Positions 4,085 through 40,721 of a stretch of DNA of 64,000 nucleotides are shown piece after piece. Every line of letters starts with the position of its first letter. Within the stretch, counting starts at the first letter, position 1. This DNA is from Polytrichum commune (Eukaryota; Streptophyta; Polytrichopsida; Polytrichales; Polytrichaceae), in contig OX485808.1 in assembly GCA_950295325.1 (NCBI GenBank), positions 9,674,501 through 9,738,500 of the forward strand, written 5' to 3'. A model generated the notes under the pieces. It saw nothing but the letters and a program-made list of their open reading frames with translations. It was not told where the DNA came from and did not search any database. The translations under genes and the position numbers were made by a program.

Positions 4085-4572
4085 GAGCATCCAAAAATCC
4101 TAACCGAATCAACACATGAATCCAACTTAAGAATAAGGACTACACATCTAGGGCCATCGGAAGTGAGAGCATTCACCTGAAACAAGGTTGACAATCTGGT
4201 AGAAACGGAGTTGAGAGTCCGAGCACTCACTAGGATGGAGTAGCACAATGCTTGGGCTTGAAAGTCTTACATGCCAAAATAGGAGAGCATGTGCTTGGAG
4301 CGGCACAATGTGAAAAGGGTGCACGGGGATGTGACCATAATTGGAAGGAGATATGCATTCAATGCATTACATTAATGGGATGAATCTGAACTTAACTAGG
4401 GGATCTTAGCCAATACAACACATAATGACAGAGGATGCAATATATAACATTATGGCTATAATGCCACATGCAAAAATCTGGGATGAACCCCAAACCCGTG
4501 GACCCTCTCGGAACCGAGAGGGTCCCTAAATACTCCAACCCCTTCACAAATATGAACCCAAAAAAGAAACCC
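4085..4572. other. Gene-free stretch with one family A palindrome
   Basis: No gene is visible. A perfect family A palindrome lies at 4501-4524 with centre AA, which is the reverse of the usual TT centre. It is the leftmost member of family A in the window. Confidence 0.6.
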
Positions 4573-5545
4573 TGTCGCGCACCTCTCCATGAGGAGTGCC
4601 CGAAACACCATGGGCACAAGGGGGACCCCGGAGTGACACCCGGGACTTGTGGCGCCGTTGGTGAGAGGGCCCAAGTGATCCTAGTGTGGGTGAGGGCCCC
4701 GGGCGTTGGGAACGCCTCCCACCCACGGAGACTAGGAGGCACAAGGGTAAGGCCATAAGCTATGCGTAGCTCATGGCGTGTTGATTCTAGAATGCTCAAG
4801 AACACCTCAATCAGAGGTGTGAGCTAGGAGTTATGGCCATTTGAGTGGGGCGCTGTCCCGGGACAGCGCCCTGGTGCAGCAGTGCCTGGGAGTGACTCCC
4901 GGGACTGCCAAGGTTCAAAGAGGCATAACGTCCTCACAGCTTGCGCAAATGGGGCAAGTGAGGAGTCCATCGGCATCTACATGAAACGTAGATGAAGATG
5001 GAGTGGTTGGTTGCTAGCCTCGGACATCATACAAGGAAGTTATGATGGTCTGAAGCTGCTAGAGGCTTCTTAGCCCAGCGGCTAAGGGAGAATGTCCACT
5101 TGGCCCCAACTCTTGGTGGAGAGACAAGAGGTTGGTTGACGGTGGGGTAGGGGCCCCGTGTAAAGTCCTAGAGGCTTATATGGGTGAGGTGGTGTGGCCT
5201 CACCCACCCGAGGCCGAACGGCATGGCCTCCATGGGCATTGGCCCATTGTGAGGCCATAGTTGCCTTGTATGGTTCGGGTTGTTGTAGTGTTGCTCCGGC
5301 AACGCGATGATCAACATAGGATTGGACTTCCATGGATGGAAGTCCACATTGGGGAAATGGGTTACCGATTAAGGAGTGAGTCCCGAAAGCAAAGTAGGAG
5401 GGTTGGTTCCCTCCTATGAACTATTGGTCCGGGGTAAGAGGAGCTATCCATTAGCATGGCGGAATGCGAAGGGTTAGCACTCGTAACCTTTGCTAGAATT
5501 GAAAATTGGCAAGATTGTCAAGGGGGGCTAGCAAGGGTTGCGACA
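4573..5545 (+). mobile_element. Solo LTR, chromovirus family, plus orientation
   Basis: The 973-bp sequence starts TGTCGCGCACC and ends GCGACA, and matches the two LTRs of the complete element at 7263-14332 along its length. It is flanked by a perfect 5-bp target duplication, AACCC (4568-4572 and 5546-5550). There is no internal region, so it is a solo LTR left by LTR-LTR recombination. Confidence 0.92.
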
Positions 5546-5550
5546 AACCC

Positions 5551-5675
5551 CCAACCACTGGACCAATGGATGAAACCCCCACCACTGGACCACTGGATGA
5601 AACCCCCAACCACTGGACCACTGGATGAAACCTCCAACCACTGGACCACAGGATGAAACCCCCAACCACTAGAAC
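5551..5675 (+). repeat. Short tandem repeat of 27-28 bp
   Basis: Four to five units built around CCACTGGACCACTGGATGAA. It lies directly after the solo LTR target duplication and may have been the LTR's landing site. No coding content. Confidence 0.8.
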
Positions 5676-5678
5676 CTT

Positions 5679-7262
5679 TCGAAACCGAGAGGGTCCCTAA
5701 GTAGTCAAACCACTCAACTTGACAAAATCTAATTACCTACCTAATCCACATACATTCATGTAAAAATGTGGTCCATACTATCCCCACCTTGACCCTGTCG
5801 GTTCCGAGAGGGTCTCACTATCATGGATACACAAACATTTTCAACCTAAGTACCTACGTAGTACACATACATGCACATACACAAGGCACATAATAGTTGT
5901 GAAAATCTGGTCCATACTATCACAACCTACACCCGAGAGGGTATCACTCTCATGCACACACAAAAATTTTCAACCTAAGTACCCACCTAGTCCACATACA
6001 TTCACATACACAAGGCACATCATAGTTGTAAAAATCTGGTCCATACTATCCCCACATTGACCCTCTCGGTTCCGAGAGGGTGGGCCTCTTATGAATACAC
6101 AAACAATTACAACCTAAGTACCTACCTAGTCCACATATATTCACATACACAAGCCAAATCATAGTTCTCAAAATCTGGTCCATACTATCCCCAACTTGAC
6201 CCTCTCAGTTTCGAGAGGGTCTCACTCTCATGCACCCAAAATCAATTTCATTATGACTAACTAGATGGACCACATACATACACATAGACAAGCCAAATCA
6301 TAGTCCATACTAAAACCATCCTAGACCCTCTCGGTTCCGAGAGGGTCTCATCCTAGTGCACAAACAAGAAATTTCAAAATGAATAACTAGCTGGTCCACA
6401 TACAGTCACATACTGAATCCACATCATAGTTGTCAAAATCTGGTCCTTAATATCCCCACCTTGACCCTCTCGGTTCCGAGAGGGTCTCATCCTAGTGCAC
6501 ACGCAAGACTTCTCAACAGGAATAACTAACTGTTTCAAAATCTGGTACATACTAAAACCATCCTAGACCCTCTCGGTTCCGAGAGGGTTCGTTGCTAGTG
6601 CACAAACAAGAAATTTCAAAATCAATAACTAGCTGGTCCACATACAGTCACATACTGAATCCACATCATAGTTGTCAAAATCTAGTCCTTAATATCCCCA
6701 CCTTGACCCTCTCGGTTCCGAGAGGGTCTCACTCTCATGAACACACAAAAAGTTCCAACCTAAGTACTTAGCTAGTCCACATCCATTCACATACAAAAGC
6801 CACATCAAGGTTGTCAAAATATGGTCCATACTAAAACCATCCTAGACCCTCTTGGTTCCGAGAGGGTCTCATCCTAGTGCACACACAAAACTTCTCAACA
6901 TGAATAACTAGCTATTTCAAAATCTGGTCCATACTAAAACCATCTTAGACCCTCTCGGTTCCGAGAGGGTCTCATCCTAGTGCACAAACAAGAAATTTCA
7001 AAATGAATAACTAGCTGGTCCACATACAGTCACATACTAAAGCCACATCATAGTTGTCAAAATCTGGTCCATACTAAAACCATCGTAGACCCTCTCGGTT
7101 CCGAGAGGGTCTCATCCTAGTGCACACACAAAACTTCTCAACATGAATAACTAGCTGTTTCAAAATCTGGTCCATACTAAAACCATCCTAGACCCTCTCG
7201 GTTCCGAGAGGGTCTCATCCTAGTGCACAAACAAGAAATTTCAAAATGAATAACTAGCTGGT
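5679..7262. repeat. Palindrome family A satellite, left part
   Basis: Units of about 100-140 bp each carry one palindrome: arm GACCCTCTCGG, centre TT, then the reverse complement of the arm. Copies begin at about 5799, 6059, 6198, 6331, 6465, 6568, 6705, 6846, 6948, 7088 and 7191, and 5679 is degenerate. Between palindromes the units share phrases such as AAAATCTGGTCCATACTA and AACTAGCTGGTCCACATA. The array continues after the chromovirus at 14338, so the two parts were one array before that insertion. Confidence 0.9.
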
Positions 7263-8256
7263 TGTCGCGCACCTCTCCATGAGGAGTGCCCGAAACACCA
7301 TGGGCACAAGGGGGACCCTGGAGTGACACCCGGGACTTGTGGCGCCGTTGGTGAGAGGGCCCAAGTGATCCTAGTGTGGGTGAGGACCCCGGGCGTTGGG
7401 AACGCCTCCCACCCACGGAGACTAGGAGGCATGAGGGTAAGGCCATAAGCTATGCGTAGCTCATGGCGTGGTGATTCTAGAATGCTCAAGAACACCTCAA
7501 TCGGAGGTGTGAGCTAGGAGTTATGGCCATTTGAGTGGGGCGCTGTCCCGGGACAGCGCCCTGGTACAGCAGTGCCTGGGAGTGATTCCCGGGACTGTCA
7601 AGGTTCAAACCGGCATAACTTCCTCAAGACTTGCTCAAATGGGGCAAGTGAGGAGTCCATCCGTATCTACGTGAAACGTAGATGAGGATGGAGTGGTTAG
7701 TTGTTATGATCAGACATCATACAAGGAAGTTATGATGGTCTGAAGCTGCCAGGGGGTTCTAGGCCCAGCAGCTAAAGGAAAATGTCCACTTGGCCCCAAC
7801 TTTTGGTAGAGAGACAAGAGGTCTCTTGATGGTGGGGTAGGGGCCCCGCGGAGAGTCCTAGAGGCTTATATGGGTGAGGTGGTGTGGTCTCACCCACCCG
7901 AGGCCGAACGGCACGGCCTCCATTGGCATTGGCCTAATGTGAGGCCATAGTTGCCTAGTATGGTTTGGGTTGTTGTAGTGTTGCTCCGGCAACGCGATGA
8001 TCAACATGGGATTGGACTTCCATGGATGGAAGTCCACATCTAAGGATTGGTTACCGATTAAAGGGGTTGGTTACCGATTGAAGGGGTGAGTCCCGAAAGC
8101 AAAGTAGGAGGGTTGGTTCCTCTCCTTTGAATTATATGGTCCGGGGTAAGAGGAGCTAACCATTAGCATGACGGTATGCGAAGGGTTAGCGCTCGTAACC
8201 TTTGCTAGAAAGGAAAATTGGCAAGATTGTTAAGGGGGCTAGCAAGGGTAGCGACA
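7263..8256 (+). repeat. 5' LTR of chromovirus
   Basis: The LTR starts TGTCGC and ends GCGACA. It contains a perfect 24-bp palindrome centred on CCCGGG (arm GGGCGCTGTC), and a second palindrome with arm GGACTTCCAT around a GG centre. Differences from the 3' LTR are point changes only, including GGACCCTGGAG against GGACCCCGGAG. Confidence 0.92.
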
Positions 8257-8258
8257 CT

Positions 8259-8270
8259 TGGTATCAGAGC
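8259..8270 (+). other. Primer binding site, initiator tRNA-Met
   Basis: TGGTATCAGAGC begins two bases after the LTR end and is complementary to the 3' end of plant initiator tRNA-Met, the usual primer for Ty3/gypsy elements. Confidence 0.9.
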
Positions 8271-8299
8271 AGGGTTCCAATATTTGAGCTAGCACTTTG

Positions 8300-9240
8300 A
8301 GGGAGACATGGCTATCAAAAATGTGGGTTATGATGGTGAGCCCGGGGATTCCTAAAGGTTGTGATGCTCAAATTGGAACAAGGATCATGTGCGAGTGGAT
8401 TTTGACCACCAATTGATTATAATGTCAATGGTGGGGATGATGGTGAATTCGGTAAGGAAATGGGGTTAGTCCTTTGAAAGGGCTCCCGCAAACCTTGAAA
8501 TGTATTCGGGGGCTTAAATACCGAATGCACCCGAAACCTTGGATGGTATTAATCTTGGATTGGAATTCCAATCCAAAATGCTTAGAATGTGGTGATGTTG
8601 GAATGGGTGCAAATGACGCACCCGGGCTCTTAGCCACCCAAATGTGGGCAATTTAACCACCCAAATGAATGGTACAACTAAGATAGACAAGTTGGCTAAG
8701 AAACACATCGTTTTAAACGGGGGTTGCAAAAGTGGGTGGTGGATGCCTTGTTCAAGTCTCCAAAGTATCTTGAGGACATGGCGGGGATCATCAAGATTGC
8801 GATAGCATTGAATTCCAAAAAGAAGTTGGATGGTACCTCACCACAAGTGGCTTTAGCCAAAGTAGGTCCCAAAGAAATGAGTGCAAATTGTTTGGTCCAT
8901 TTTACTTAGGCAAAACATGTTGGTGCCGCGGACGGAATGTTGAAAGGTGGCTTTATGCTTCCAAGGCAAATCATACTCGTGCCGCGGACGGAATGTTGGG
9001 AGGTGGCTTGATCCTACCAAGGCAATTCATGTTCCTGCCGCAGATGGAGTGTGGGAAGGTGGCTTTGTGCTACCAAGGCAAAACATGTTTGTTTTGCGGA
9101 CAAACTATTAGAAATTGGTTTTGTGGCACCAAACCAATTTGTCCCGCGGACGGAATGTTTAAAGTTGGCTTTGCGGACCAAGCCAAGCCAAGTTGCCGAG
9201 GACCGAATGTTGGACGATGGCTTTGTGGCCAAGGCTAGTA
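8300..9240 (+). pseudogene. Degenerate gag region with internal tandem repeat
   Basis: No frame is open across this region. From about 8920 to 9230 a unit of roughly 50 bp containing GCGGACGGAATGTT and GGTGGCTTTG is repeated five to six times and has drifted. It occupies the gag position between primer site and protease. No capsid or zinc-knuckle motif could be identified with certainty. Confidence 0.5.
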
Positions 9241-9760
9241 GCCTTAAGCCGAGGCCAAGTATTTTGTACCTTGAGGCTCAAATGAATGGGAGACTTGTCT
9301 CATGGGTTGACAAAGAGTTAAGGCATTCCTTCATGAGCCCAAAACTCACAAGGGAGTTGGGGCTTGCCGATTGGTAGAGTGGGGAAGCCACCAAGGTGCG
9401 GTTTACAAAGGGCAAACCACATGAGACAATGGAGGCCGCGATGCATGTAACCTTTCAATGTGGGACGTTGGGTTTTTGTCAAAATTTCACACCAAGTGAA
9501 ATAGATGAAATGCATGTCATTGTGAAGGCCGCCTTCTTTGAAACTCACATGATAGATGTGAGGTGCAAGCCGGTGTGCTTGCCGTGCATTATGATGTGTC
9601 ATAATGGCAAAGAATTGAGGTTCAAATTGACAAGGACTCCTATGGTAGGAGGACCCAAGTTGAATTTGGTCTTAATGGACCAAATGAAATATGGTAAACA
9701 TAATGGTCGTGGTTCAATTGGAGCAACTCCAAGGAACTCATGGGGAGGCTAGGAAAGATG
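9240..9760 (+). pseudogene. Retroelement aspartic protease remnant
   Basis: The peptide HSFMSPKLTRELGL at about 9325-9370 matches the region following the active site of Ty3/gypsy proteases. The active-site triplet itself is replaced by unrelated residues, so the enzyme would be inactive. A partly open stretch (9396-9752) continues into a frame without stops but has no further recognisable motif. Confidence 0.6.
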
Positions 9761-9959
9761 GGCCTCCCCCAAACCATACTTGTGGGATGTTGGTGAGATA
9801 CAAGGATGTCTTCACCAATGTGTTGCTCAAAATGTTACCGCCAAGAAGTGAATTGCAACTTTGCTCAAGAAGAAATTGAGTTCTTGAGGCATGTGGTGAC
9901 AAAGGAAGTTGGTGGACAAACATGAAGAATTTCAAGGCAATCCAAGAGGAGAATTGGAC

Positions 9960-10860
9960 CTTGACTCAAAAAAAAAAAAGCTTAGGTCATTGGTTGGCCT
10001 AGCCAACTACTACCACCACTTCATTCTAGATTTGTTTTAAGGTTGCTAGGGCCTTACTCGACTTATTGAGGAAATGGCTATCCCAAGAGTGGGATGAGCC
10101 TTGTCACCAAGCCTTTGGGAAGCTCAAGAGCAAGTTCCCTTCACAAGATGTGGTTAAGTTTCCGGGTTTTCATAAGCATTTTGAGGTGCACATGGAGACG
10201 AAGGACTTTACCATTGGCGGATGTTGATCCAAGATGGATGACGATTGCTTATGAGAGCAATAAGCTCAATGGTTGTTAAACCTTGTCCGGCTTGTGCAAG
10301 ACATGGCTATCCCAAGAGTGGGATGAGCCGTGCCACCAAGTCCTTGAGGAGCTTAAGACGAAGTTCTCTTCGCCGCCCGTGCTCAAGTTCGCGGAGTTTG
10401 ACATACCTTTTGAGGTGCATGCGGGGGCGAGTGACTTTACCATTGGCGGATGTTGATGCAAGATGGATGGCCATTGCATATGAGAGCATGAAGCTCGATG
10501 GTTCGACTTGTGGAAGAAATGGCTATCCCAAGAGTGGGATGATGTTTGTCACGAGTCTTTGGGGAGCTTAAGACCAAGTTCTCTTCGCCGCCCATGCTCA
10601 AGTTCGCGGAGCTTGACAAACCTTTTGAGGTGCATACGGGGGTGAGTGACTTTGCCAATGATGGATTATGTGTAAGATGGATGGCCATTGCATATGCGAG
10701 CATGAAGCTCGATGGTTGTCAAAGAAGACAACCAACTCATGACAAAGAACTTCTTTGCGATAGTGCATTGCTTGAAGATGTGGCGACACTAGTTGGGGTC
10801 GCACAAAGTAAAGGTCTACAAGGACAACGTGTCCTAAAAGTATTTTAACATACAAGCGCA
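9960..10860 (+). pseudogene. RT/RNase H remnant with triplicated segment
   Basis: After an A-rich run at about 9970 the peptide VGLANYYHHF marks the end of a gypsy reverse transcriptase. The following segment, beginning GGCTATCCCAAGAGTGGGAT, occurs three times, at about 10073, 10303 and 10517, each 200-230 bp, covering the RT-RNaseH junction (WDEPCHQAF). Stops and frameshifts break all three. The upstream catalytic palm of RT is not recognisable. Confidence 0.65.
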
Positions 10861-11059
10861 AGTGAGCGCCAAGTCATTGCGTTGGCATGATAGCTTGGCG
10901 CTTATGAAGGTGGATCTAATCCACAAACCGGACCGTGGAAATGTGGTGCCGGATGCGCTAAGTAGACGGGAAGAGTTCCAAGCAATGAGAACCATCCAAA
11001 CCTTGTGGCTAATGTGTGCCGGCGAAGGAAACTTGTGATGCAAGATACGGGAGGGGTAA

Positions 11060-12066
11060 ATTTACTACCCCAAAGCACAAATGCTTTTAGGTGAGCTTCG
11101 CAAGAGCAAGGTGCTCAAAGAGGTTATGTTGGTGGACGGATTGTTCAAGTGTAAACAAAGTCGGATGTATGTGCCACAAGGCAAGTTGAGGCTATCGGTT
11201 TTGAAGGAAGAATGTGATAGTCCTATTGCCGGCCATAGAGGAGAAAGAAAAAGCCGCCATAGAATGGTGTCATGGGGGTACCATTGGCGGTGCATAAAGA
11301 AGGATATAGCCCACTTTGTGAAGGCTTGGATGAAGTGCCAAGTGAACCGAGCCTCTTACCAAAAGCAAGGCGGCTTCTTGCAACCGTTGCCTATCCCGTC
11401 GGGGCCATGGCATAGTATGTGCATGGACTTGATCACAAGTTTGCCGGAGTCACATGGGTATGATGCCATCTTGTTGATGGTAGAGCGGTTTGCCAAGTTG
11501 GCACACATGGTGCCGATTGTGGGAACCGCCACCGCGTTGGAGACCGCATAGCCTTTTCTCAAAGGATGGTTGAGGCACCACGGGTTGCCAAGAGTGATTG
11601 TGTGGGATCAAGATCCAAAGTTCACAAGTGCATTTTCAATGCATTTCTCTAAGGAGGTCGGATGAAACTAAGGTTTAGCACGGCCTTGCATTCCCAAATG
11701 AATGGGAAAGCGGAGCATGTGAATGTAGTCTTGAAGCAATACTTGAGGAACTTGGTGGGGGCGGACCAAGGAGATTGGGCGGTCTATGTGGGTCGAGCGG
11801 AGTGTAATTGCAATGTAGCCACGCACTTGGCTACCAAGGGGTGGTCTTTCGTGGTGGCTTATGGAGTGGATGCGCTCCAACCTATTAACTTAGCTCTCGA
11901 GGGGGCACATTCAACACTAGAGTTCAACCAAGATGGTGAGGACTTGGCCAAGGATGGTAAACAAGTCTTGGAGATGACCAAGTTGTTGGTGGAGAAAGCC
12001 CGAAGGTGCTACGGAGTGCAAATCAATGCCGGAAGACGCGAAGTGGAGTATGAGGTGGGCCAATAA
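11060..12066 (+). pseudogene. Integrase remnant
   Basis: The frame 11081-11551 carries an HHCC-type zinc-binding region (GHRGERKSRHR ... MKCQ) followed by the start of the integrase core (WHSMCMDLITSLP). A TAG ends it at 11551. The core continues in other frames, with HHGLPRVIVWDQDPKF visible at about 11577, and again as an open frame 11662-12066. At least one stop and one frameshift separate the pieces. Confidence 0.8.
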
Positions 12067-12535
12067 GGTGTTGTTGAATGTGGACAACTTCACCTTGCCC
12101 AAAGGCCTTACTCCAAAAGTTCATGTCCAAAATTGGAGCTTCGTTTCCCATTGTGGACCAAGTGTTCAAGGACATGTATAAGTTGGAATTACCGCCAGAG
12201 AGCAAAGTGCATCCGATATTTCATGTCTCATTACGAAAGTCATTTTAGGGCGACACCTTGTGGCCCGATCACAAGCAAGTGATTAGGCCACGTCCCGACT
12301 TTGTGGACGTCATTTGGAACATCAGGTAGGAGGGCATCCTCAAGTGTAGGAAGCCCAAGTAAAAAAATGAAAGAAAATGTACAAAGGAATACTTGGTGAA
12401 ATGATGAGGATAGAAAGAAGCCGTTTGGGTAGCGGCAAGAGACATGGTGAACACCAATGAATAGGTGAAGCACTTTGAAGAAACTAAGGCTAAGGATTCC
12501 AATAAAATGAAGCATAGGCATTGATGAGGACATCA
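12067..12535 (+). pseudogene. Integrase C-terminus and chromodomain remnant
   Basis: In broken frames the sequence gives FHVSL followed by WPDHKQVIRPRPDFVDVIWN and then KEYLV and AVWVAARDMVNTNE. The order and spacing match the integrase tail and chromodomain of chromoviruses. Chromodomains in this group guide integration to marked chromatin. Several stops make this copy non-functional. Confidence 0.65.
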
Positions 12536-13326
12536 ATCTCCTTTAGTGGGGGAGACACGCTAGTAGCACACTTAGCTTCGAGGTTAATTACGCCACAACA
12601 TGAACTTGTTCTTTGGCTTGAGGGAATAAAGTCCAAACTTTAGTGGTGCAAAGAGAAAAGTATGAGATGAGGTCCTAGTCTTGTACTTGTGCTTGGTTAA
12701 TGGAAGAGGGGGAATAGACATGCCAAACTAGGTTGGGTAAGCCGAGTAATTGGGGGCCATGGCTTCGAGGGGCCTTGGATAAAACCAAGAAACTTCTTAG
12801 TTGTGGGCTTGTCCGGGCGGGGACAAGGTGATGGCGCGTGCTCATAAAAGTGCTACCCGCGAGCTAACGAGAGTTGGCGCATGGGAGTCATGAACCCATG
12901 TCTCGAAAGAGCAAAGTGGGAACGGAGTCGGGCGGGACTTGGTATCACTCCCGTGCGATCGAGGCGTGGCTTAACAATGGAAAGCCATCTCGGAGTTGCA
13001 ACCGAGACAACTTAGTGGAAGCGTTGAGGTCTCGCCTAGATGTGTCATGTTAGGCTAGTGGAGCCTAACCGGGGAGGCCCCAAAGGAGGGGCAACCCAAG
13101 TGAGTCCCAAAGTAGGTGGGTCTAGTGTAGGTTAGGTCCTTGGAGGAGAGATCCAAGGTCGCTAACAGACCACCTAGGAACGACACCTTTGGGACTATGC
13201 CAAATTTGAAGATGCATTGTGGGGGTCGCGCCCTAAGGTAAACACAATGCCGCACCATAGAGGATGGCAACTTGAGAATTGGTGTGCCGACTACGAGTAT
13301 AGTCGATGAGGGCATCGACTCCGTTT
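12536..13326 (+). other. Non-coding 3' internal region of chromovirus
   Basis: The stretch lies between the chromodomain remnant and the polypurine tract. Short open frames occur on both strands, but none resembles a known protein. Confidence 0.5.
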
Positions 13327-13338
13327 GGTGGGGGTGAG
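13327..13338 (+). other. Polypurine tract
   Basis: GGTGGGGGTGAG sits directly before the 3' LTR, where plus-strand synthesis is primed in LTR elements. Confidence 0.75.
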
Positions 13339-14332
13339 TGTCGCGCACCTCTCCATGAGGAGTGCCCGAAACACCATGGGCACAAGGGGGACCCCGGAGT
13401 GACACCCGGGACTTGTGGCGCCGTTGGTGAGAGGGCCCAAGTGATCCTAGTGTGGGTGAGGACCCCGGGCGTTGGGAACGCCTCCCACCCACGGAGACTA
13501 GGAGTCATGAGGGTAAGGCCATAAGCTATGCGTAGCTCATGGCGTGGTGATTCTAGAATGCTCAAGAACACCTCAATCGGAGGTGTGAGCTAGGAGTTAT
13601 GGCCATTTGAGTGGGGCGCTGTCCCGGGACAGCGCCCTGGTACAGCAGTGCCTGGGAGTGATTCCCGGGACTGTCAAGGTTCAAACCGGCATAACTTCCT
13701 CAAGACTTGCTCAAATGGGGCAAGTGAGGAGTCCATCCGTATCTACGTGAAACGTAGATGAGGATGGAGTGGTTAGTTGTTATGATCAGACATCATACAA
13801 GGAAGTTATGATGGTCTGAAGCTGCCAGGGGGTTCTAGGCCCAGCAGCTAAAGGAAAATGTCCACTTGGCCCCAACTTTTGGTAGAGAGACAAGAGGTCT
13901 CTTGATGGTGGGGTAGGGGCCCCGCGGAGAGTCCTAGAGGCTTATATGGGTGAGGTGGTGTGGTCTCACCCACCCGAGGCCGAACGGCACGGCCTCCATT
14001 GGCATTGGCCTAATGTGAGGCCATAGTTGCCTAGTATGGTTTGGGTTGTTGTAGTGTTGCTCCGGCAACGCGATGATCAACATGGGATTGGACTTCCATG
14101 GATGGAAGTCCACATCTAAGGATTGGTTACCGATTAAAGGGGTTGGTTACCGATTGAAGGGGTGAGTCCCGAAAGCAAAGTAGGAGGGTTGGTTCCTCTC
14201 CTTTGAATTATATGGTCCGGGGTAAGAGGAGCTAACCATTAGCATGACGGTATGCGAAGGGTTAGCGCTCGTTACCTTTGCTAGAAAGGAAAATTGGCAA
14301 GATTGCTAAGGGGGCTAGCAAGGGTTGCGACA
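13339..14332 (+). repeat. 3' LTR of chromovirus
   Basis: It is 994 bp, the same length as the 5' LTR, with TGTCGC and GCGACA ends, followed at once by the CTGGT target duplication. Confidence 0.92.
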
Positions 14333-14337
14333 CTGGT

Positions 14338-15367
14338 CCACATACAGTCACATACTGAATCCACATCATAGTTGTCAAAATCTGGTCCTTAATATCCCCA
14401 CCTTGACCCTCTCGGTTCCGAGAGGGTCTCACTCTCATGCACCCACAAACAATTTCAACATGAGTTACTAGTTGGTCCACATACATTCACACACAAAAGC
14501 CACATCATAGTTTTCAAAATCTGGTCCATACTAAACCCATTCTAGACGCTCTCGGTTCCGAGAGGGTCTCATCCTAGTGCACAAACAAGAAATTTCAAAA
14601 TCAATAACTAGCTGGTCCACATACAGTCACATACAGAATCCAAATCATAGTTGTCAAAATCTGGTCCTTTATATCCCCACCTTGACCCTCTCGGTTCCGA
14701 GAGGGTCTCACTCTCATGCACCCACAAACAATTTCAACATGAGTTACTAGTTGGTCCACATACATTCACACACAAAAACCACATCATAGTTTTCAAAATC
14801 TGGTCCATACTAAACCCATTCTAGACGCTCTCGGTTCCGAGAGGGTCTCATCCTAGTGCACAAACAAGAAATTTCAAAATCAATAACTAGCTGGTCCACA
14901 TACAGTCACATACAGAATCCAAATCATAGTTGTCAAAATCTGGTCCTTTATATCCCCACCTTGACCCTCTCGGTTCCGAGAGGGTCTCACTCTCATGCAC
15001 CCACAAACAATTTCAACATGAGTTACTAGTTGGTCCACATACATTCACACACAAAAGCCACATCATAGTTTTCAAAATCTGGTCCATACTAAACCCATTC
15101 TAGACCCTCTCGGTTCCGAGAGGGTCTCATCCTAGTGCACACACAAAACTTCTCAACATGAATTACTAATTGGACCACAAACAAACACATACACAAGCCA
15201 CATCACAGTTGTCAAAATCTGGTCCATACTATCGCCACTTAGACCCTCTCGATTCCGAAAGGGTCGGCCTCTAGTGCAATTCCAAAAATTTCAATATGTG
15301 ACACTTGGTGGTCCACATACATACACATACATATAATCCCACTATCCACATGAAGGTATTGAAGTAC
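14338..15367. repeat. Palindrome family A satellite, right part
   Basis: Family A palindromes start at about 14406, 14546, 14686, 14826, 14964, 15104 and a degenerate one at 15241. Alternate units carry GACGCTCTCGG instead of GACCCTCTCGG in the left arm (14546, 14826), so the array here has a 280-bp higher-order period. It lies immediately downstream of an exon of the ParB-like gene and probably belongs to one of its introns. Confidence 0.88.
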
Positions 15368-17887: not shown

Positions 17888-18014
17888 CTGGAAAAATGAG
17901 GCATACAATCTTTAGAACAACCGACACGCCGACCCTCTCGGTTCCGAGAGGGTCTCCCTCTCATGCACACACAAAAAGTTTGAACCTAAGTTGCTACCTT
18001 GTCCATATACATTC
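17888..18014. other. Intron fragment with family A palindrome
   Basis: The sequence upstream of exon a contains a perfect family A palindrome at 17931-17954 (TT centre) and then family A spacer sequence up to the E2 terminus at 18015. E2 therefore landed in family A DNA. Confidence 0.7.
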
Positions 18015-24658: not shown

Positions 24659-24679
24659 TCTGCCTACACACATGAACAT

Positions 24680-27395: not shown

Positions 27396-27435
27396 TTTAA
27401 GGTTTAGGGTTTAGGGTTTAGGGTTTAGGGTTCAG
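27396..27435 (+). repeat. Interstitial telomere-like repeat (TTTAGGG)
   Basis: About five tandem copies of the plant telomere heptamer, the first and last altered (TTTAAGG, GGGTTCAGG). It is short and isolated, so not a chromosome end. Confidence 0.85.
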
Positions 27436-28082: not shown

Positions 28083-28162
28083 CACAAGCCTCGCGGGCAA
28101 CCACCTAAACCAAGGAGGTGTCGACACCTGGCAAGGTGTTGGCCCGCGAGGCTTCTGAGCCG
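28083..28162. promoter_or_regulatory. GC-rich hairpin upstream of ParB-like gene 1
   Basis: Inverted arms AAGCCTCGCGGGC (about 28086) and GCCCGCGAGGCTT (about 28141) enclose the perfect palindrome AGGTGTCGACACCT. A telo-box-like GGGTTTAGGGT follows at about 28199. The position just before a CT-rich leader suggests a core promoter, by inference. Confidence 0.35.
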
Positions 28163-28199
28163 TTGATGGGCCCGGCGCAATCTAATGGCCCGGATTCGA

Positions 28200-30058: not shown

Positions 30059-33000
30059 ATGGCCCCTAAAAAGAGACCAGGTGAAAGGTGGTTCATGCTC
30101 GCGCCAGACCACCTTTGGCAGGAGTATGAAACTCCACAGGACGATTCTTACGTCCCAAAAAATGGCGTCGTTTTGGCATGGTCCGTTCAGGTGGTGAAGG
30201 CATCCATGTTCAAGCTGCTATTCGTGGTGAAGGTGGGGACCCACGAGCAGCACACCTGGGCAACGCTGACGGGATGGGAGGTTGCGTCCGTCCAGTCTCT
30301 CGGGGACTACGTAGACGTGATACTGGAGAACTCCGCCGTGCAGAACGTCCACATGTTCATGCACCAGTTCTCCGAGCCCTTCGACCCCCTGTACGCCAAG
30401 GAGACTTGCGTCGACCCTGAAACCATAAAACCGGAGGCCATATTCATAGATGGTAGTGTAACGAACACGAAGGTTGCGAGCAGGTTCACGAAGTTAAAAC
30501 AGGCTATCACGGTTCTCAACAAGGCGCTGCAAAGCAAACCCAAGACGCAGCAGCCTGTGAGGCGGAAGGCAACGACGGAAGAAGGCGCAGGGTCCTCAAG
30601 ACCACAAACTGTGAGGAAACCGCGGGCGGTCCCTGCAGACTCGAGACGGACGAGCACTACAACAACGCCGGCTGACAGCGAGACGCCAACGCCATCAGGA
30701 AGCCGTCAGACGACCCCTTCCAAGAGGGGAAGAGAGTCATCGGGGATGACTGACGAGCCTGTTTCCCCGGAGCTCCGGATGCCGAAGCCTGGCCAAGAGG
30801 TGGATGCAGGCGAAATACAAAAAATAAACAACAACTTCGAGACAAAATGCCTGCACTGCTTCTTCATGGGCAGGGACTTCAAATTCGAGGTCAACATTGC
30901 GCAGTGCCACCTTGCGCCACCAGAGAAGTGCGTCCGAGCCAAGGAGGACGCCTACGTCGACTGGATGGTCGCTCAAATCTTGGGCGGGCAGTTCAAGGAC
31001 GACAGGCAGACAATTGTTGTCATGCCACAAGGGCTGAAAAGAATGCCGACGCCTGAGATGTGGCCGGCAATCTCTAAAGGAGACTTCTGGCTGATTGACG
31101 GGCAGCACAGTGTGGAGGCCTCGAAAAAAATCCAGCTGATGACCGAGTGGGACGACCCGAACAACCAGAAGGAGAAGCTAAAAGTTTGGAAGGCTTTGGT
31201 GGTTTGGTCGGACAACGAGACGGTCCTCAGCGACATCTCCAGGTTCTTCAACATGGAGAACAAAAAGAGGGCCTATCAGGCATCGTGGATCAGAAACATC
31301 ATGGCCTCGAGGGAGGTGTGGGAGTTTTATGGAAGGCCTCCCAAGGAAAGGGAGAATGCTAAAGACAAGAACCCCAAATGGGAGGTGAGTATGTTTGGGT
31401 CGATCGACCCAAACTCCTACATTGTTTTGTTGTCATCGCCAGGTTGATAGTTTGGGTCGGTCGACCCAAACTCTGAAATTATTTTGATATTGTCCCCAGG
31501 TTCATAGTTTGGGTCGGTCGACCCAAACTCTGAAATTGTTAAGATGTTTTCGCCAGGTTCATAGTTTGGGTCGTTCGACCCAAACTGCTGTTGCATTTGT
31601 TTTTCCATTATGTGTTGTCTAACATGTGCTAATGTCTTCCTGTGCAGGACTTCAAATATCAAATGATCAATAAATTCTCCTCGATCGACAATGCTAGCCA
31701 CAAGCAGAAAAAGTATAACGAGCTGAGAGGAGAAATCTATTTGATCACAGCGTCCGATTCCGTATGGGCAAGATGGAAGAGTGTTTTTGAAAAACACGAG
31801 ACGGGGGACCTCATGGACCCCGACACCGGCATGCTCTTCAACCAGACTACGCGCTTCAAGCAAATGAAGCCTCTGGTGAGGGAGTTCTTCAGAGCGCTTC
31901 AAGGTCTCTCCGAGACAGAGATGGGAAAAGCGGCGTCCCACATCCTACACGTGGAGACGACGGCGAAGAGATGCTGGGTCCACCCTAAGATCGTCTTCAC
32001 CAAACCCAAGATCTTCGTCCCTTCATGCTACACAATGAAGGAATGGACGGAGAACAGGAAGAAGAAGACGACCATCGTCCAGGAGCTGCACAAGCTTGTG
32101 CCAGAGAAGAAGCTCATCGTGGACGGAGAGGTCGACGAGGCGCACTGGAGGGCCTTCAAAGCCGAATATAAGTTTACCAGTGCGTCCATGGCGGCACTCA
32201 TGAGGGAGGCGGGAGACGACTTCCTCAGATCCAAGCTCGTGAAGGGGGGGAGGAACCGGGCGCTTCCCGAACACTCAGTGCGGGCCTTCTCCAACTTCAT
32301 AAAGGAGAAGAAGATCGTCAGTTTCGAAGGCGATGCGCAATTCAACATGGTCACTGTCGAACCTCTCAGGATCCAGGGTTGGCCGGGTTCTGAGTCAAGG
32401 AAGGCGATCAGGACTAGAGCCGGGGACCGCTTCCCCTTCGGAATGATAGACTTCAGGAACATCCCTGGAGCCTCATTCGAGGGGACTATGAGCACCCCTT
32501 TTTACGATCCTTTCTTGTCGAAGTTCGTGGACTACGGCAGCCCCAAATTCAGGGAGGTCGACGTCTGGCTCTGGATTGTCGAGGACAGAAGGGCAGAGCA
32601 GGTTTACGAGATCGTGCGCAAATTGCAGCCGGAGTATGCCGTCTCGAAATCTCACTACGTTGCTGCACCGGCGGAGGGGGCGTACAGCACGCTGAAAGAC
32701 AAGAAGACGAAGATCGTCAACGTGCTGTGTTTGTACTTCGTGTACAAAGCTGAGCTGGTTAAGGTGCCAAACCATCCCATAGCCAGGATGGAAAAGCTCT
32801 TCCAAGTCCAAGAAGGGTTGGGTACCAGCAGGAGCTTATATGACGAGGCGAAGTACGCCAACTACCCCGCGGATGAGCTGCGCATGGAGTTCTACCTGCG
32901 GATGATGAGGACCCTCACGAAGAGAGGGGACTGCATCTTCAACGTTTTCGGGGGGTCCAAACCGATTTTTGCAGCCATTGTAAGCAGAAAACCCAGAAGT

Positions 33001-34902
33001 CCCTATACGTTCGGTTTGGGTCGAACGACCCAAACTAGGGGCATGCACAGTTTGGGTCGAGCGACCCAAACTAGGGCCATGCATAGTTTGGGTCGAGCGA
33101 CCCAAACTAACTATTCTTATTTTGTTTTGGAAGTCATTTTCCATTATATGTTCATTTGGTGTTACTAATAGTATTGATTTTGATTGTGCAGATGTCTGGG
33201 TTGAACATCTACTCCTATGTGGAGGATGCCGATGTTCAATTCTACAGGACCCAAAAGGCGCTGGCCAAGAGAATGGACATCCTCGACTGGATACCCGGAT
33301 CCTACGTCGAAGAGATCGTCGAGGGGGGCGAGAATCCTTTGGATATTGCGAGGCGAATCAACCCGGGTGAATTCGCCATGCGGGCCCCCGTTCAATTGCC
33401 AGAGCCGCTCATCGGGTTGCATCCGGGCAATCCGTCTATGGGAGCAGGTGGCGAGGTTGGGGAGGAGGGGGAGGAAGACGAGGAGGAGGCGGAGGAGGAA
33501 GCAGAGAAAGTGGAGGGGGAGGTGGAGGAAGGGGCAACAGGATTCACTCAAGAATCCGAGGCCCCTCAGCGGAAGAAGGCCATGCGGCCTGCCACGCCGC
33601 AGAGCAGGCTGGTGCCCGCGTTGACGGTGGACGACGCCAAGGATATGTACTCGAGGGACGCGACGGCCACCTTTAGGGAGCGTAGAAGGATGAAGGGGAA
33701 GAAGCTGTACGGGGACTATGCGGTGGAGGAGACGATCGCAATAAGCTCCGAGGACGAGGACGACATGGAACTCGCCAAGAAGCTGAGGTCTGATCCTGCC
33801 TCCCCCAGAGCGTTCGCCGGGAATGTGAGGGTGAAACCGGAGGTCCTCACCGTGGAGGAGGCGAACGCAAAAATGCTCCGAGACGAGGAGCAGCGTGTGC
33901 GACTGCAGAGGGCTGCCGCCGAGGAACCCTCTGTCCGCAACGAAGTCGCGGAGTTGAGGGCTCTCCTGTTGGAGCAGGAGCGGCAAAGGGCGATGTCCCA
34001 AACTCCGTCCCAAGCGGACCTCATCACGCAAGTGATCCAGGGCATGCTGGCGCAGGGATTGGTGATGGCTCCCCCGAGTTCATTCCCTCACTTGCCCGCA
34101 GGCTTCCCTCCACAGGATATCCGCCCGCGGCCGGCGTTGGAGCATTCCTTCAGCTTCGCGGATTTGCTGCAGCCGCACGCCCGTCCTTACGCGCCTGTGC
34201 AGCAGGTGGATGATCCAAACCTTTGGCGCGTCCCCGGAGCGTCCAGCTCGTTGGCACCCCCCCCGCTCCGGCCTCCCATCCTCTTGCCCCCACACCACCA
34301 GCGGGACGACCCCCACATGTTTGGGTCGTCCGACCCAAACAGTGCCGACGTTGCAGCGTCGCAGAGCGACCCTCGCCAAGCAGCAGGGTTTGGGTCGGCC
34401 GACCCAAACCCCGTCCCCCATCAGACCCCGGTCGACGAGCCTATGCTAGATGTTGAAGGCCCGCAAGGGCCTGGTGATACCTCTACTCCTAACCCAGTCG
34501 ATGAACCAATGCATGATGCGCATGCGGAGGTTGGGTTGGGACAAAGGCCTGACAGTCAGCCTTTGCAGGAGCAGGTTGCGGCTGACGGCGTCGTCGGAGG
34601 CGGCGGTGACAGAGGTGGGGCAGCGCACGCGATGCCGGCATCAACGTCGTCAAGGCACGACCAAGGCGAGGTAATGCACTGACCCCACTCAGTTTGGGTC
34701 GGCCGACCCAAACTTCCTGGGTCTTTGACTTGTTGCCTTGGTCGTGTCCCCTAGCTAGGACAAACTTAGGCCCCCCCCGGCACTCGCGCCCTTCGTCACC
34801 CCCAGCGACCATTCGTTCGTCCACCTACCCCCGGCTTTGCAACGAAGTCTTCATCACGGCGGCCCGTCTCTTCAATTTTTTCTAGATGTAGAAGTAGGCT
34901 AG
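30059..34902 (+). CDS. ParB/DGQHR-like protein, gene 1 (about 1426 residues)
   Basis: Coding exons: 30059-31384, 31648-32979, 33192-34670 and, less surely, 34759-34902 (TAG). All joins are phase 0 with GT-AG borders (GAG|GTGAGT, ATT|GTAAGC, GAG|GTAATG). Residues 270-405 carry the ParB/DGQHR-like part: AQCHLAPP, then VVMPQG, then WLIDGQHSVEASKK at about 344-357, then KALVVW and FFNMENKK. The canonical Arg after DGQH is Ser, so any enzymatic use of the pocket is doubtful. Residues 160-245 are a Ser/Thr/Pro-rich linker. Exon 2 of the CDS (444 residues) has no domain I know. The third coding exon has a Glu-rich tract and a likely coiled coil (EVAELRALLLEQERQR). Every intron contains family B palindromes (31393, 31450, 31507, 31564; 33014, 33050, 33086; 34692), and the third coding exon contains two more. 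G/C-ending codons dominate. An alternative last exon would be the FCP1-like one at 35173, also phase 0. Confidence 0.6.
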
Positions 34903-35172
34903 TTTGAACGCATCGTTCAACGCGGCTCCCCCAATCAAGATGTACATAGAGCATTGTATATAATATAATCACCATTTTTGACTCCTATATACTTGTATAT
35001 TGTGTTTGAATGTATTTTGTATGCTCTTGTATCCCTTGTATCCCTTGTTGCACCCCCTCCAAAATGAATCAAATGCTTTTGTGTTTGCACCGAGAACGCT
35101 CGTTTCCTTAATGCTTCGTTTGGACATAGCATGACATAAGTCGCCCCCGTTTTCTCTCGCTCGTATCCGCAG
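34903..35172 (+). other. Intergenic or intron sequence before FCP1-like exon
   Basis: AT-rich DNA that ends in the acceptor ATCCGCAG|GGC at 35172. No promoter is obvious, which favours joining the next exon to the upstream gene, but a separate gene is not excluded. Confidence 0.4.
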
Positions 35173-35985
35173 GGCTCGGAGCATAGCGTAGCGGCTCCCC
35201 GACGCTCTTCTCCAAGGAGCGCAGAGGGCAGCACGGCGGCCCCCCCGGTTTTACCCGCCCCGCCCCCGCTGCCGAAGAAACGATTCCTGGTGTTAGACCT
35301 GAACGGTGTCCTCGTGCAGTGCGTTCATTGCCCTAGGGCCCCCACAGTGCCCTTTTGCAAGCCCGAGGACGCTAATTACGACGGGCCGCCCACGTTCATA
35401 AAGAGCAAACTAGTTCACCTCCGCCCGTGGCTTCGGACCTTCCTCCAGATCGCCCAACAACGATGGTGGGTGGTCGTGTGGAGCTCCATGACGGCCGAGA
35501 ACACCAATGCGGTCGTGGAGTTCATCTTCAAGGGCATCGAGCCCCCCTGCATGGTCCTAGCACAGGAAGCCTGTAGAATATTGTACACACAGGACGGCAA
35601 AGTCGTCAAAAAACCAAACAACCCCGCTTCCCCCCAATACCTCAAGGTCTTGAAGCCCATTTTTTGGGACCAGCGACCGTCCTTGATAGGCGTCCCCTAC
35701 GACGTCCGCCCCACCCGCGAGAACACGCTCATGGTGGACGACAGCGCCGCAAAGAACATGTTGAACCCGACGGCCAACTTCATAGTGTGCCCTACGTGGA
35801 CGGTCGAGAAGGTCCGGGACCGATTTTTGTTAGACCTTAGTAAATACCTCCAGGCGCTCTGGGGAAGTGGACTTCCCGTAAACAATTTTGTTAGGAATAA
35901 TCCCATAGGCGAGAGATACTTGGATCCACGAGACCATTTGTACAGAGAGTTGTTATCTCACGCGAAATTTAACAAGCTCATTTGA
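35173..35985 (+). CDS. FCP1/NLI-interacting-factor-like HAD phosphatase domain
   Basis: From the acceptor at 35172 a phase 0 exon runs to TGA at 35985 (270 residues). After a Pro-rich lead it has FLVLDLNGVLV, then VVWSSMTAENT, then TLMVDDSA and an RDHLYRELLSH tail. These fit HAD motifs I, II and IV of the FCP1/SCP phosphatases, which remove phosphate from RNA polymerase II tails in the nucleus. Motif I normally has DxDxT/V; here the second Asp is Asn (DLNGV), as in several plant relatives, so catalysis may be weak or lost. No initiator ATG was found near the start, so it must be spliced to an upstream exon. Confidence 0.7.
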   Translation, partial: GSEHSVAAPRRSSPRSAEGSTAAPPVLPAPPPLPKKRFLVLDLNGVLVQCVHCPRAPTVPFCKPEDANYDGPPTFIKSKLVHLRPWLRTFLQIAQQRWWVVVWSSMTAENTNAVVEFIFKGIEPPCMVLAQEACRILYTQDGKVVKKPNNPASPQYLKVLKPIFWDQRPSLIGVPYDVRPTRENTLMVDDSAAKNMLNPTANFIVCPTWTVEKVRDRFLLDLSKYLQALWGSGLPVNNFVRNNPIGERYLDPRDHLYRELLSHAKFNKLI

Positions 35986-36128
35986 GACAGTACGTGTGTT
36001 TGTATGTGTGTGTGTGTATATGCGCCTACCCATTTTGTGTAATTTACGCTTCATATGTATCTTGATTTTCACGCGCTCTATCTCCCCCCTTTTCCTTGGG
36101 TTTTGTTTTGTTCCAATTTTGGCTCCAG

Positions 36129-36904
36129 CGTTTGGAGCCCTCGATTGACGTCGTCAGCGAGTCAGACTTGGGGAGCTTCTTCTACGAGACCGTTTACGAC
36201 GCCGCGTCAACCATCGACTACTCCAAGGAGCCTCTTGACGCCGGCGTCGTCGATAGCCCCCCACCCAAGCAAATCTTCCGGCGATCTGCGTCCCCGTCAC
36301 CGCTCAAAGGCATAAATCGCAAATGCGTCCGGACATCCCCCTCTCGGCCCGGCGGCAGTAGTACACCTCAACGGCGGCTGCGGATGGACGCTCGGCCTAC
36401 GAAGAGTGGAACCCTTCCTATTCCTTTGCGGGATGCCTTGCCCCTCCTCGCCAACTCCGACGGGAACGCCCCCGGTGACAAGGTGAACCCCCCCCCCCCC
36501 CCCCCAAAAAAACATGGTTATCCGCGCATTACAATCATTTTGCACTTAAAAAATGAATGTGTGACACGTTTGGGTCTTCCTCCCTAAACTAACACATGTG
36601 TTCGTGCGTTGACGCGTTGCAGGTTGCTCCCACCCGTAAACCTATGCGGTCTAGTGCGTCCATCGAGTTGGAGCGTTTCTACTCCATGACCAGAAATGCA
36701 AGACAGTCCACTTCATCGTATTCGAATTCTTCGTCGTATAATTCGGGCGGCCGACGGAATACAAAATGTGTTATTGATGGCGTTCACCCCAAGAATGGCT
36801 ATAGTCGCGGGGCGGAGATTTTCAGGAATGTTGAAGCAATGCGAGCAAAAGAAACTGCAGCAAAAGAAAAAGAGGCAAAAGAAAAAAAAAGCAAAAGAAA
36901 ATGA
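36129..36904 (+). CDS. Two exons of unknown function downstream of FCP1-like exon
   Basis: Exon 36129-36482 (acceptor GGCTCCAG|CGT, donor GACAAG|GTGAAC) and exon 36623-36904 (acceptor GTTGCAG|GTT, stop TGA) join in phase 0. The first reads RLEPSIDVVSESDLGSFFYE and a Ser/Pro-rich stretch. The second is basic and ends in a Lys/Glu-rich tail (KEKEAKEKKSKRK). No known domain. They keep the phase 0 pattern and GC bias of the upstream exons and may be an alternative 3' end of the same transcription unit. The intron has a run of 16 C and 7 A (about 36489-36510) and a decayed family B site at about 36569. Confidence 0.45.
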
Positions 36905-37463
36905 AGCAAAAGAAAAAGAGGTAGTATCCGAGGCTAGATAGGCCATAGTAGGCGTAGGGTTTTGGGCCATAGGCAAGAACATTTTGGGTCGCACTATCCA
37001 ATGCATGTGTGGTGTTAGCATGATATGCATTTTACATGCCACACTTTGTATGTTTTTTTTTTGCAATAATACAAGTTAGACATGATTTCCCCTTCCATAT
37101 GGTCTAAGGTTTGGATTGCCCTACCTAAACCATCACAAATATGAGTTTGGAATATTTTGTATGCAATATTATATTGGTTAACATATTAACCCTTCAATAA
37201 GATCTATGGTTTGGATTGCCCTACCTAAACCATATTCATACAAGCTCTAATATTTTGTGTGCAATAATATGAATGTTTTAAGGTTTCCCCTTAAATGTGG
37301 TCTAAGATTTGGATTGCCCACCCTAAACCATCACAAATATGAGTTATTTATGGGGTTCTTGGTCTAAACACCTGCTTCAAAGTGTTCGCATCTTACAACT
37401 TTCTCCAATATGTGTTCCATTTATCCTTGTTCTTATTTATGTGAATGTCTCAAAATGCCCAAA
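36905..37463. repeat. Decayed family B palindromes before the E3 right terminus
   Basis: Roughly 105-bp units carry GTTTGGATTG, centre CC, CTACCTAAAC (about 37110, 37212, and a further variant at 37307). Compared with family B the arm changes are G to A and C to T. A weaker copy lies at about 36982. No gene is present. Confidence 0.6.
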
Positions 37464-37490
37464 AAGTCTCAATTTAACGAATATAGTGTT
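37464..37490 (-). repeat. Right terminal sequence of E3
   Basis: The reverse complement of the 27-nt terminus seen at 21062. The flanking sequence ATTAG does not match the left flank CTTTG. Confidence 0.72.
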
Positions 37491-38186
37491 ATTAGTTGTT
37501 AAAACGTCCAGTAATTGGTTTTTTACTGTTTTACTACTGAGCAATTTATTCAGTAGTAGTAATTATTTGGTGTTAATAATTTAGTTGGTCAGATAATGAC
37601 TTGTTGGTCCAAAGTTATTAAATAGCATTGCATTTCTTTGACAAGTTGATCATTTTTTATGACCTCAGTGTGCCAGTTGGTCATGTACTGGACAAAGGGC
37701 AAAAATGCGTGAGGATAGCTAGTTGCAGTGTTTTGACAGGGTGGTAACCTACCAAGTTGACCCACCTAGTAGGTAGTTGTTTTGAGGTATATAAAGATTG
37801 TCCTAGAACCTTTTGGCTCTCTTAGTACACATATGTGAAGATAGCTTAGACTCTTAGAGAAGGTGTCTATGCTTGTAAGTTTAGACCTAGAAATGTGAGG
37901 CAGTCCAGACGGACAACAGTCTTGGAAAACAAACAACAAAGTGTTGAAAGAGGGATTTGAAGAGTAGATTCATTGTTGGCATTCTCCTATTACTGCTCTC
38001 CTTCTAAGATAACATAGTTCTTAGTGTTGGCAAGACAAAGGTGTTGAAGGTGTTATTGAAAATGTGCATTGGACAACTTGTCATGTAGGAACAAAGAATG
38101 CATTAGAAAGTAGAAAGGGTGGGTATGCGCGAACGCGACACTCATAGGAGACGTCTAGAGCAAGTAGTTAGAATGACTTGGAAAAT
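37491..38186. other. Gene-free interval
   Basis: AT-rich sequence with no credible open frame, repeat or structural RNA that I could recognise. A TATAAAG-like string occurs at about 37790. Confidence 0.4.
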
Positions 38187-39615
38187 GTACCATAGGTTGG
38201 TTGAAGCTTAGAAACGTTGGATTTGGATTCGGTTTGCGAAAACCACCTTTGACCAAAAACGTTAGCTAGTCATAAGGCACGGGTAGATCACTCCATTGTC
38301 AAGTTGAACATCACGTGCGACCAAAAAAAATCTTCTTTTGGTAAGTTGCACCACCAAAATGGGTCAAAATTTTATCAAATTTTTTTCATGAGTACATATA
38401 CACAGTACCTATGACATACTTAAAAATGGTAACGAAATTTGATGATTTGTTTTTTTCATAAAACATACCGTTTCTAACTAGAATGACACAGAATTGAACT
38501 AAACAAATTACTAAAAAAAATAAAGATGACTAAAAATTTCAGAAAACTATTCAAAAGTTACTATCAATGGTTATGTATATGTAGAAAAAAAATCATAAAT
38601 TTTAAAATTATATATGGCATGTAATATAGGGGTAGCAAACTTTGTCCGCACGTGGTGTTCAATTTGACAAGGAGTGATCTACCCGTGTCATAAGGACCCG
38701 AAAACTACACTATAGGTTGTAGAAGATTAGAGATGCTAGCTCTAAGCTTATATTATGAAAACAACATCTAAATGTTGGCCATTCAGACCAAAAACGTGAG
38801 CTCGTAGGTAGTGTCCAAGACATATTTTTTAGCCTTAAACGGAAGTTTAAGGCGATCATACGTCAAAGGAGTTTTCTAGAGATGCACTAGGTTGGGAGGT
38901 GTTTTTGCAAGGCTTGGAAATGACTAGCAACAAAAGAGTTAATGTAGCAAGGAAGGACTGCAAACACCCATTAACAATGGGCTTTCATATATACGTACTA
39001 TGCAGCATTTGGTTGCTGCGCAGAAGTTTACGACAATCTGGGCCGAGGTTTACGAACGCCCGTTCGTAAATGTGGCGGAAATGTAAGCTTCTGCGCAGCA
39101 ACCAAGTGCTGCACAGTTACGAACGTGCATTCGTAAACCTCGGCCCACATTTACGAATGGGCGTTCGTAAACATCAGCCCACATTTTCGTAAACTTTTGC
39201 GCATCAACCAAATGCTGCATAGTACGTATATATGAAAGCCCATTGTTAATGGGTGTTTGCAGTCCTTCCTTGCTACATTAACTCTTTTGTTGCTAGTCAT
39301 TTCTAAGCCTTGCAAAAACACCTCCCAACCTAGTGCATCTCTAGAAAACTCCTTTGACGTATGATCGCCTTAAACTTCCGTTTAAGGCTAAAAAATATGT
39401 CTTGGACACTACCTACGAGCTCACGTTTTTGGTCTGAATGGCCAACTTTTAGATGTTGTTTCCATAATATAAGCTTAGAGTTGGCATCTGTAACCTTCTA
39501 CAACCTATAGTGGAGTTTTCGGGTCCTTATGACTAGCTAACGTTTTTGGTCAAAGGTGGTTTTCGTAAACCGAATCCAGATCCAACGTTTCTAAGCTTCA
39601 ACCAACCTATGGTAC
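38187..39615. mobile_element. 1.4-kb fold-back (long inverted repeat)
   Basis: The left arm starts TGTACCATAGGTTGG at 38187 and continues to about 39030; the right arm is its reverse complement from about 39187 to 39615. The left arm is interrupted by a MITE at 38278-38697. Arms are about 430 bp without that insert and mostly identical. The loop holds three family C palindromes. No transposase frame is inside. Flanking duplications are not clear. Confidence 0.8.
38278..38697. mobile_element. hAT-like MITE nested in the fold-back arm
   Basis: The 420-bp element has inverted ends CACGGGTAGATCACTCC extending over about 44 bp. It is flanked by a perfect 8-bp duplication TCATAAGG (38270-38277 and 38698-38705). 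The opposite arm of the fold-back, near 39530, shows the empty site with a single TCATAAGG. An 8-bp duplication is typical of hAT elements. Confidence 0.85.
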
Positions 39616-40721
39616 AAATATAAATCACAAATCACAAATCACAAATCAATGCATTTGTAGTATTGGTTCAAACATAGATGATGGTTGAGAGTTTACAAAC
39701 GCACGTTCGTAAATCACAAATCAATGCATTTGTAGTATTGGTTGAAACATATATGGTGATTGAGAGTTTACAAACGCGCGTTCGTAAATCACAAATGAAC
39801 GCATTTGTATTAATGATTCAATCACATATGATGGCTAAGAGTTTACGAACGTGCGTTCGTAAATATCACATGTGAGTATGGTCTATGTATCTAGCAATAT
39901 CCATAGATAGACATACATCTATGTATAGACCCAAACAATATATCATAGTAATATATGAACGTGCGTTCGTAAATACCACCTATGAGTATGGTCTATGTGT
40001 CTAGGAACATCCATAGATGGACATACATCTATGCATAGACCCAAACAATATGTCATGGTGATATACGAACGCACGTTCGTAAAGATATGACCCAAAGCCT
40101 TATGAACGGTCGTTTGTAAATACCACCTGTGAATATGGTCTATGTATCCAAACAACATCCATACATAGACACATCTATGCATCGACCCAAATATGATGAT
40201 GATATATGATACAAGTCTGTCATGATGATATACGAATGGGCATTCATAAAGATACCTACCAAAGCTTTACGAACGGCCATTCGTATGGAGTATACCAATC
40301 CAATTGCCCCAAATACCCGTATGATGGCATACGTTTTGCGAAAGTATGTCCGTAAATACCACAATTATTACAGTCTAAATTTTATTTGCCATAAAAAATA
40401 CAACATGTGACATACGCGCGGCCGTTCATAAAGATACCCTCCTGGAATATGTATAGGGAGGTATACGAACGCCCATTCGTATATCCCAAGTCGTATTTTT
40501 TTGTATTTTGGGCCTATAATCGACGACATACATCGTGTCGACTGTGTATGCGACTAATATTTTTTAAATCCATATCATTCAGTTTTTTTCATATGCATGT
40601 ATAATGTTCTTTGACACCAATGTGAATATATGTATCGTGTGATCTTTAACATCATGTGTTGTTTGTCCCATGCACATTTGATCATGAAATGGGATGTGCT
40701 TTACGACCGCGCGTTCGTGAA
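39049..40721. repeat. Palindrome family C, about 14 copies
   Basis: The consensus is arm TTTACGAACG, two variable bases, then CGTTCGTAAA. Good copies lie at 39049, 39150, 39692, 39767, 39842, 39953, 40062 and 40700, and weaker ones at about 39116, 40101, 40230, 40266, 40412 and 40462. Part of the array has a 75-bp unit (39692-39863) and a 109-bp unit (39953-40083). Centres seen include CC, CA, CG, TG and GG. Confidence 0.85.

Follow-up and report, generated by a model that had tools for sequence, protein, structure and literature searches.

Three families of palindromes unrelated in sequence were found in a 64,000-nucleotide stretch of the genome of the moss Polytrichum commune (GCA_950295325.1, contig OX485808.1, C6:9674501-9738500; hereafter the window), and they are probably parS-like cognate sites of ParB-like proteins encoded by the transposons that carry them. 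Where the ParB-like protein differs, the palindrome differs too, whereas the element keeps its architecture. When up to three mismatches per palindrome were allowed, the window contained 21 sites of family A (12 exact; 4501-17954), 37 of family B (32 exact; 24872-34713; palindrome GTTTGGGTCGNNCGACCCAAAC) and 12 of family C (2 exact; 39049-40721), and the three intervals did not overlap. Dinucleotide shuffles, used as the null, gave no site for A, B or C. Across the genome (407.8 Mb in 64 contigs), exact copies numbered 9231 for B, 2909 for C and 850 for A, against 0 matches for each of the reversed-pattern controls, and chance was therefore ruled out for all three. The original prediction, made from the letters of this stretch, of three multi-copy families that do not mix was thus borne out in the window, and the arms were also unmixed in two other family B elements (e1 and a copy on C1, described below) and at one C-type locus.

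An unbiased scan for perfect inverted repeats (arms of at least 9, spacer of 0-12) returned 80 cases in the window, versus 5, 2 and 3 when the sequence was shuffled locally three times. A 2-bp centre was present in 47 of the 80, 43 belonging to A, B or C and four to the long terminal repeat (LTR) of a retrotransposon, so other palindrome geometries were not equally common in the window. Inverted repeats with a spacer of 0 amounted to 14, nine of which were family B sites with a self-complementary centre. The CG tip described beside the centre of every arm proved a weak trait, found there in B and C and one base off in A. Among 127 B-like sites with up to four mismatches, drawn from the window, the C1 copy and e1, the arms carried 1.56-2.0 bits of information, the centre about 0.3 and the flanks at most 0.58. 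These values bear on the explanation that no protein is involved and that tandem repeats or RNA hairpins produced the sites as a side effect. Many sites do lie within tandem repeats, and inverted repeats are capable of forming hairpins; however, the arms are near-invariant around a variable centre and between variable flanks, and independent arrays have kept the same arms, which makes this explanation very improbable. The different surroundings claimed for each copy were observed between arrays, but not within an array, where tandem-repeat units are common to many copies.

The family B element is a plant transposon of 16-18 kb with terminal inverted repeats (TIRs); it carries a DUF7869 gene and, divergent from it, a gene of several exons. 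Its end sequence, AACACTATATTCGTTAA, is present five times in the window. One full-length element, e2, extends from TIR to TIR at 21062-37490, with 28-bp identical TIRs and the same ends as in e1 and the C1 copy. The element e1 starts to the left of the window at C6:9661393 and enters it with its DUF7869 end (1-3618, plus strand), and of e3 only the DUF7869 end is present (18015-21061, minus strand, 94% identical to e2). Positions 1-3620 were 100% identical over 3620 bp to 24679-21060 in inverted orientation; two nearly identical full-length elements at one locus point to very recent transposition. The target duplications CACT on both sides of e1 and AAGT on both sides of the C1 copy (C1:610757-628840) define a TIR transposon with a 4-bp duplication, seen in two of the three full-length copies. 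Since e2 is flanked by TTTG and ATTA, the pairing of its termini through a duplication was dropped; a flush adjacent deletion beside e2 could, as a guess, explain the mismatch. The idea that e3 and 37491-41655 form a single element split by e2 was also dropped, as no duplication was present. The 4-bp duplication is a Sola-like trait, documented for Sola2 in the excerpted text of PMC3627910. An assignment to CACTA/EnSpm with a 3-bp duplication was discarded because the CACTA flanks differ (TAA/TTC in e1) and the duplication lies outside AACACTA. Exact B sites numbered 35 in e1, 32 in e2, 36 in the C1 copy and 0 in the rest of the window. The proposed confinement of each family between transposon termini therefore applies to B; the A sites sit between two other inserted elements rather than between termini of their own, and C retains one terminus.

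The gene structure of family B was deduced from reading frames and splice consensus, without transcripts. Thirteen of the 37 window sites (24872-25830) form an array whose tandem-repeat unit is 78 bp long; it is upstream of the DUF7869 gene, which lies on the minus strand at 21855-24751 (open reading frames, ORFs, 23075-24751 and 21855-23078). The only Pfam match of this gene was PF25273 at 21855-23078 (E 4.6e-41), and its product is presumably the transposase. A second array of 14 palindromes (29008-30031), mostly in a 158-bp repeat, precedes the ParB-like gene on the plus strand. The model of exon 1 of this gene (30059-31384) contains a PH-like fold (residues 12-160, weak) and a ParB-type CTPase fold (residues 272-404). 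Four sites (31393-31585) lie in intron 1 (31385-31647), three in intron 2 (33014-33107) and one in intron 3 (34692-34713), and the other two, at 34319 and 34388, are in frame within the low-complexity exon 3 (33192-34670), where both (34319-34409) spell FGSxDPN. Exon 2 (31648-32979) encodes a conserved domain that had no match in Pfam, NCBIfam or PHROGs, and against PDB profiles gave two weak rows, neither a methyltransferase and nothing convincing; its conserved GD.IFNVFGGSKP has no more than a resemblance to methyltransferase motif I. Exon 4 (35173-35985), with a NIF/HAD-type phosphatase domain (PF03031, E 1.3e-13), is assigned to the ParB-like gene by its splice signals and probably belongs to it. 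The family B range had been drawn as far as 37330; its array was recovered, ending at 34713, and 37055-37339 is occupied by another repeat of 98 bp, whose GGTTT...AAACC ends are degenerate and may be remnants of B sites. In addition, six TTTAGGG-type telomere-like repeats were noticed within e2 at 27395-27436.

Two functional alternatives, both considered unlikely, can be weighed against this distribution. In the first, the palindromes are transposition sites through which the ParB-like or the DUF7869 protein pairs the ends, like TNPA on CACTA subterminal repeats. Such repeats are described, in the portion of PMC2613891 available, as multi-copy, partly palindromic and varying by subfamily together with their binding proteins, and the family C fragment of the window retains a terminus and sites although its DUF7869 gene is missing. 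However, the sites of e2 are internal, with the nearest B site 3.8 kb and 2.8 kb from the ends, and 8 of the 37 are intronic. In the second, they are operators, and the ParB-like protein acts through them on two promoters only, its own and that of the DUF7869 gene. Arrays upstream of both divergent genes, together with a fold match to KorB, named a transcriptional repressor, favor this role, which alone leaves the sites in introns 1, 2 and 3 and in exon 3 unexplained.

The parS-like interpretation is consistent with the predicted folds. A ParB/Srx-fold N-terminal CTPase domain was present in the models of the A and B proteins, and their fold matches include bacterial ParB, Noc and KorB. The ParB superfamily has a GxxRxxA-type box at a strand-helix turn, where EGNHRLSA (A) and DGQHSVEA (B) are located, a possible equivalence judged by eye. 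Binding, dimerisation, CTP use and spreading would be expected of the ParB-like proteins. A dimeric DNA-binding or recombination system of one kind, with three specificities, had been proposed; the anatomy (ParB-fold models for A and B, a B-type ParB-like gene for C) agrees with the DNA-binding part, and nothing was found in support of recombination. Inverted arms around a short centre do look like the sites of a site-specific recombinase, but no recombinase domain was detected among the element ORFs scanned with Pfam, and dozens of like sites per element would be expected to delete it, so that such a role is hardly credible.

The twelve family C palindromes of the window (39049-40721) lie in a deleted transposon fragment (37491-41655) recognized by its similarity to a C-type element, with a single terminus at 41639-41655, and no ParB-like reading frame was found near them in the window. 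Among the genome sites listed, those at C1:2270108-2276150 were arranged as in family B (two arrays separated by a gap of 3.2 kb, then a site beyond a second gap of 1.3 kb). Exon 1 was therefore expected in the second gap and was then found there, in two open halves (profile E 4.7e-35 and 1.3e-89) and accompanied by an exon 2 piece (2.3e-74). Ten exact C sites are situated upstream of this gene and one more begins 5 bp into intron 1. As in the B element, the ParB-like gene is opposite a DUF7869 gene (66% identical). The terminus of the C-type element, AACACTATATTCGTTAATCGGAGAC at C1:2265811, is the same at window position 41655. This C-type copy has decayed, being interrupted by a stop and by pieces of LTR. 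Compared with the end of the C-type element, the window fragment has two matching stretches, one of 320 bp (78%) and one of 215 bp (73%), and lacks the DUF7869 gene between them. The ParB-like parts of B and C are 43% identical. The same architecture and a homologous protein with a different palindrome is what a co-evolving site and protein predict. A large inverted repeat (38687-39533; 389-nt arms, 96%) was also observed, with C palindromes at its centre.

For family A, the putative link to a ParB-like protein comes from one locus and from fold rather than sequence. Twenty of its 21 sites (4501-15265) are split by an LTR retrotransposon and a solo LTR. The remaining one (17931-17954) lies on the upstream side of a gene fragment (15302-17911, minus strand), some 20 bp away from its first open frame (17225-17911), which models as a ParB-type CTPase fold. 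No A sites were detected to the left of e1 in C6:9640501-9661392, and the A palindrome was spelled in none of the 120 database relatives listed.

Reading the palindromes through into protein, B was spelled in 16 of 49 and 13 of 47 database relatives, and C in one of each set. The relatives spelling C were distant, and P0046 was close to the C-type protein. Motif labels placed on the exon-1 tree showed no convincing clustering beyond shuffles. A sister palindrome D (GTTTCGGGCG arms), guessed from the tails of P0023, P0025, P0027, P0194 and P0198, was not confirmed, with 0 copies in the genome, and a variant E (GTTTCGGTCG), taken from the tails of P0024, P0029, P0189 and P0191, is an unconfirmed candidate. 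The second arm of D and E is mostly ambiguous in protein letters; P0194 and P0189 fit one matched change on both arms. The relative P0047 is named as an uncultured cyanobacterium metagenome-assembled genome (MAG), possibly plant contamination, and a search for related loci among viral and genome contigs led nowhere. Retention was assessed in six B copies that ranked among the most divergent in the list (90-92% identical), for which 150 of 948 candidates had been scored. The intron-1 array was present in all six, with units of about 45-60 and unlike spacers, and its first site lay 8-9 bp from the donor (three exact, three with one mismatch). The 30 closest B copies showed too little diversity for intron sites to be compared with spacers; sites in upstream positions tended to be less diverse than their own spacers.

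The sites of bacterial ParB-parS and Noc-NBS and the KorB operators are palindromic, and the moss proteins share the N-terminal CTPase fold of these systems. They differ from ParB-parS in that no ParA was found among the ORFs scanned, each element has many sites, and the carrier is a chromosomal eukaryotic transposon. A close eukaryotic likeness is to Sola1-1_Ec32 of Ectocarpus and to green and red algal transposons, whose ParB-like/DNA-methyltransferase accessory proteins were proposed to bind and modify their own element (PMC12477816, in extract). Sola1-1_Ec32 is also a giant DNA transposon, and its ParB-like gene and transposase are encoded on opposite strands. In that extract no sites are described, whereas the moss elements show likely sites, of three sequences and in a plant, and their family B gene has a phosphatase domain and no detected methyltransferase domain. 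The VANC systems of Arabidopsis VANDAL elements show the same pattern with another protein; according to the passages available of PMC5735166, their motifs are short and all point the same way within an array, while the moss sites are 20-bp palindromes and the moss protein models as a ParB fold. CACTA/TNPA systems (PMC2613891, same portion) share CACTA-like termini and subfamily-specific repeats with a subfamily-specific binding protein, but the moss elements have a 4-bp and not a 3-bp duplication, a presumed transposase matched in Pfam by DUF7869 alone, and internal and intronic sites. In open-licence papers, no account was found of cognate palindromes for transposon ParB-like proteins or of several such specificities within one genome, and no paper on DUF7869 was found.

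Other features were recorded in the window. Four LTR copies are present, and the retrotransposon has a primer site that is presumably of the tRNA-Met type. On the minus strand, 43474-50826 contains kinase and NB-ARC domains and about 27 copies of a 144-bp repeat in an array; it looks like a kinase-NB-LRR gene, a type known from mosses, whose repeats are very regular. A 48-bp tandem repeat with a TTGGCCAAGGCC core occupies 3623-4070, and e1 adjoins it with its CACT duplication.

In the proposed mechanism, a dimer of the ParB-like protein would bind the palindrome, each subunit taking one 10-bp arm, and the bound protein would mark or coat the non-coding DNA of its own element (upstream regions and introns), as ParB loads at parS. 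As the protein diverges, the palindrome would change on both arms, which would give the elements of one genome separate, non-mixing addresses. By analogy with VANC for VANDAL, the likeliest benefit may be that the element, by recognizing itself, keeps its own copies able to be expressed or to move, a proposal held at slightly short of even confidence, with transposition synapsis and control of the own promoter as close rivals. A fuller eukaryotic ParB-parS system, in which CTP clamps load at element-specific promoter and intron palindromes, spread, confer epigenetic identity against host silencing, and split together with their palindromes into mutually blind lineages, is a tentative and rather doubtful extension. 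With thousands of copies of the candidate sites in a single genome, in three different sequences and with matching proteins, binding, specificity switching and anti-silencing can be tested directly. Should the proteins be CTP clamps, plant transposons would have reused a bacterial segregation machine.
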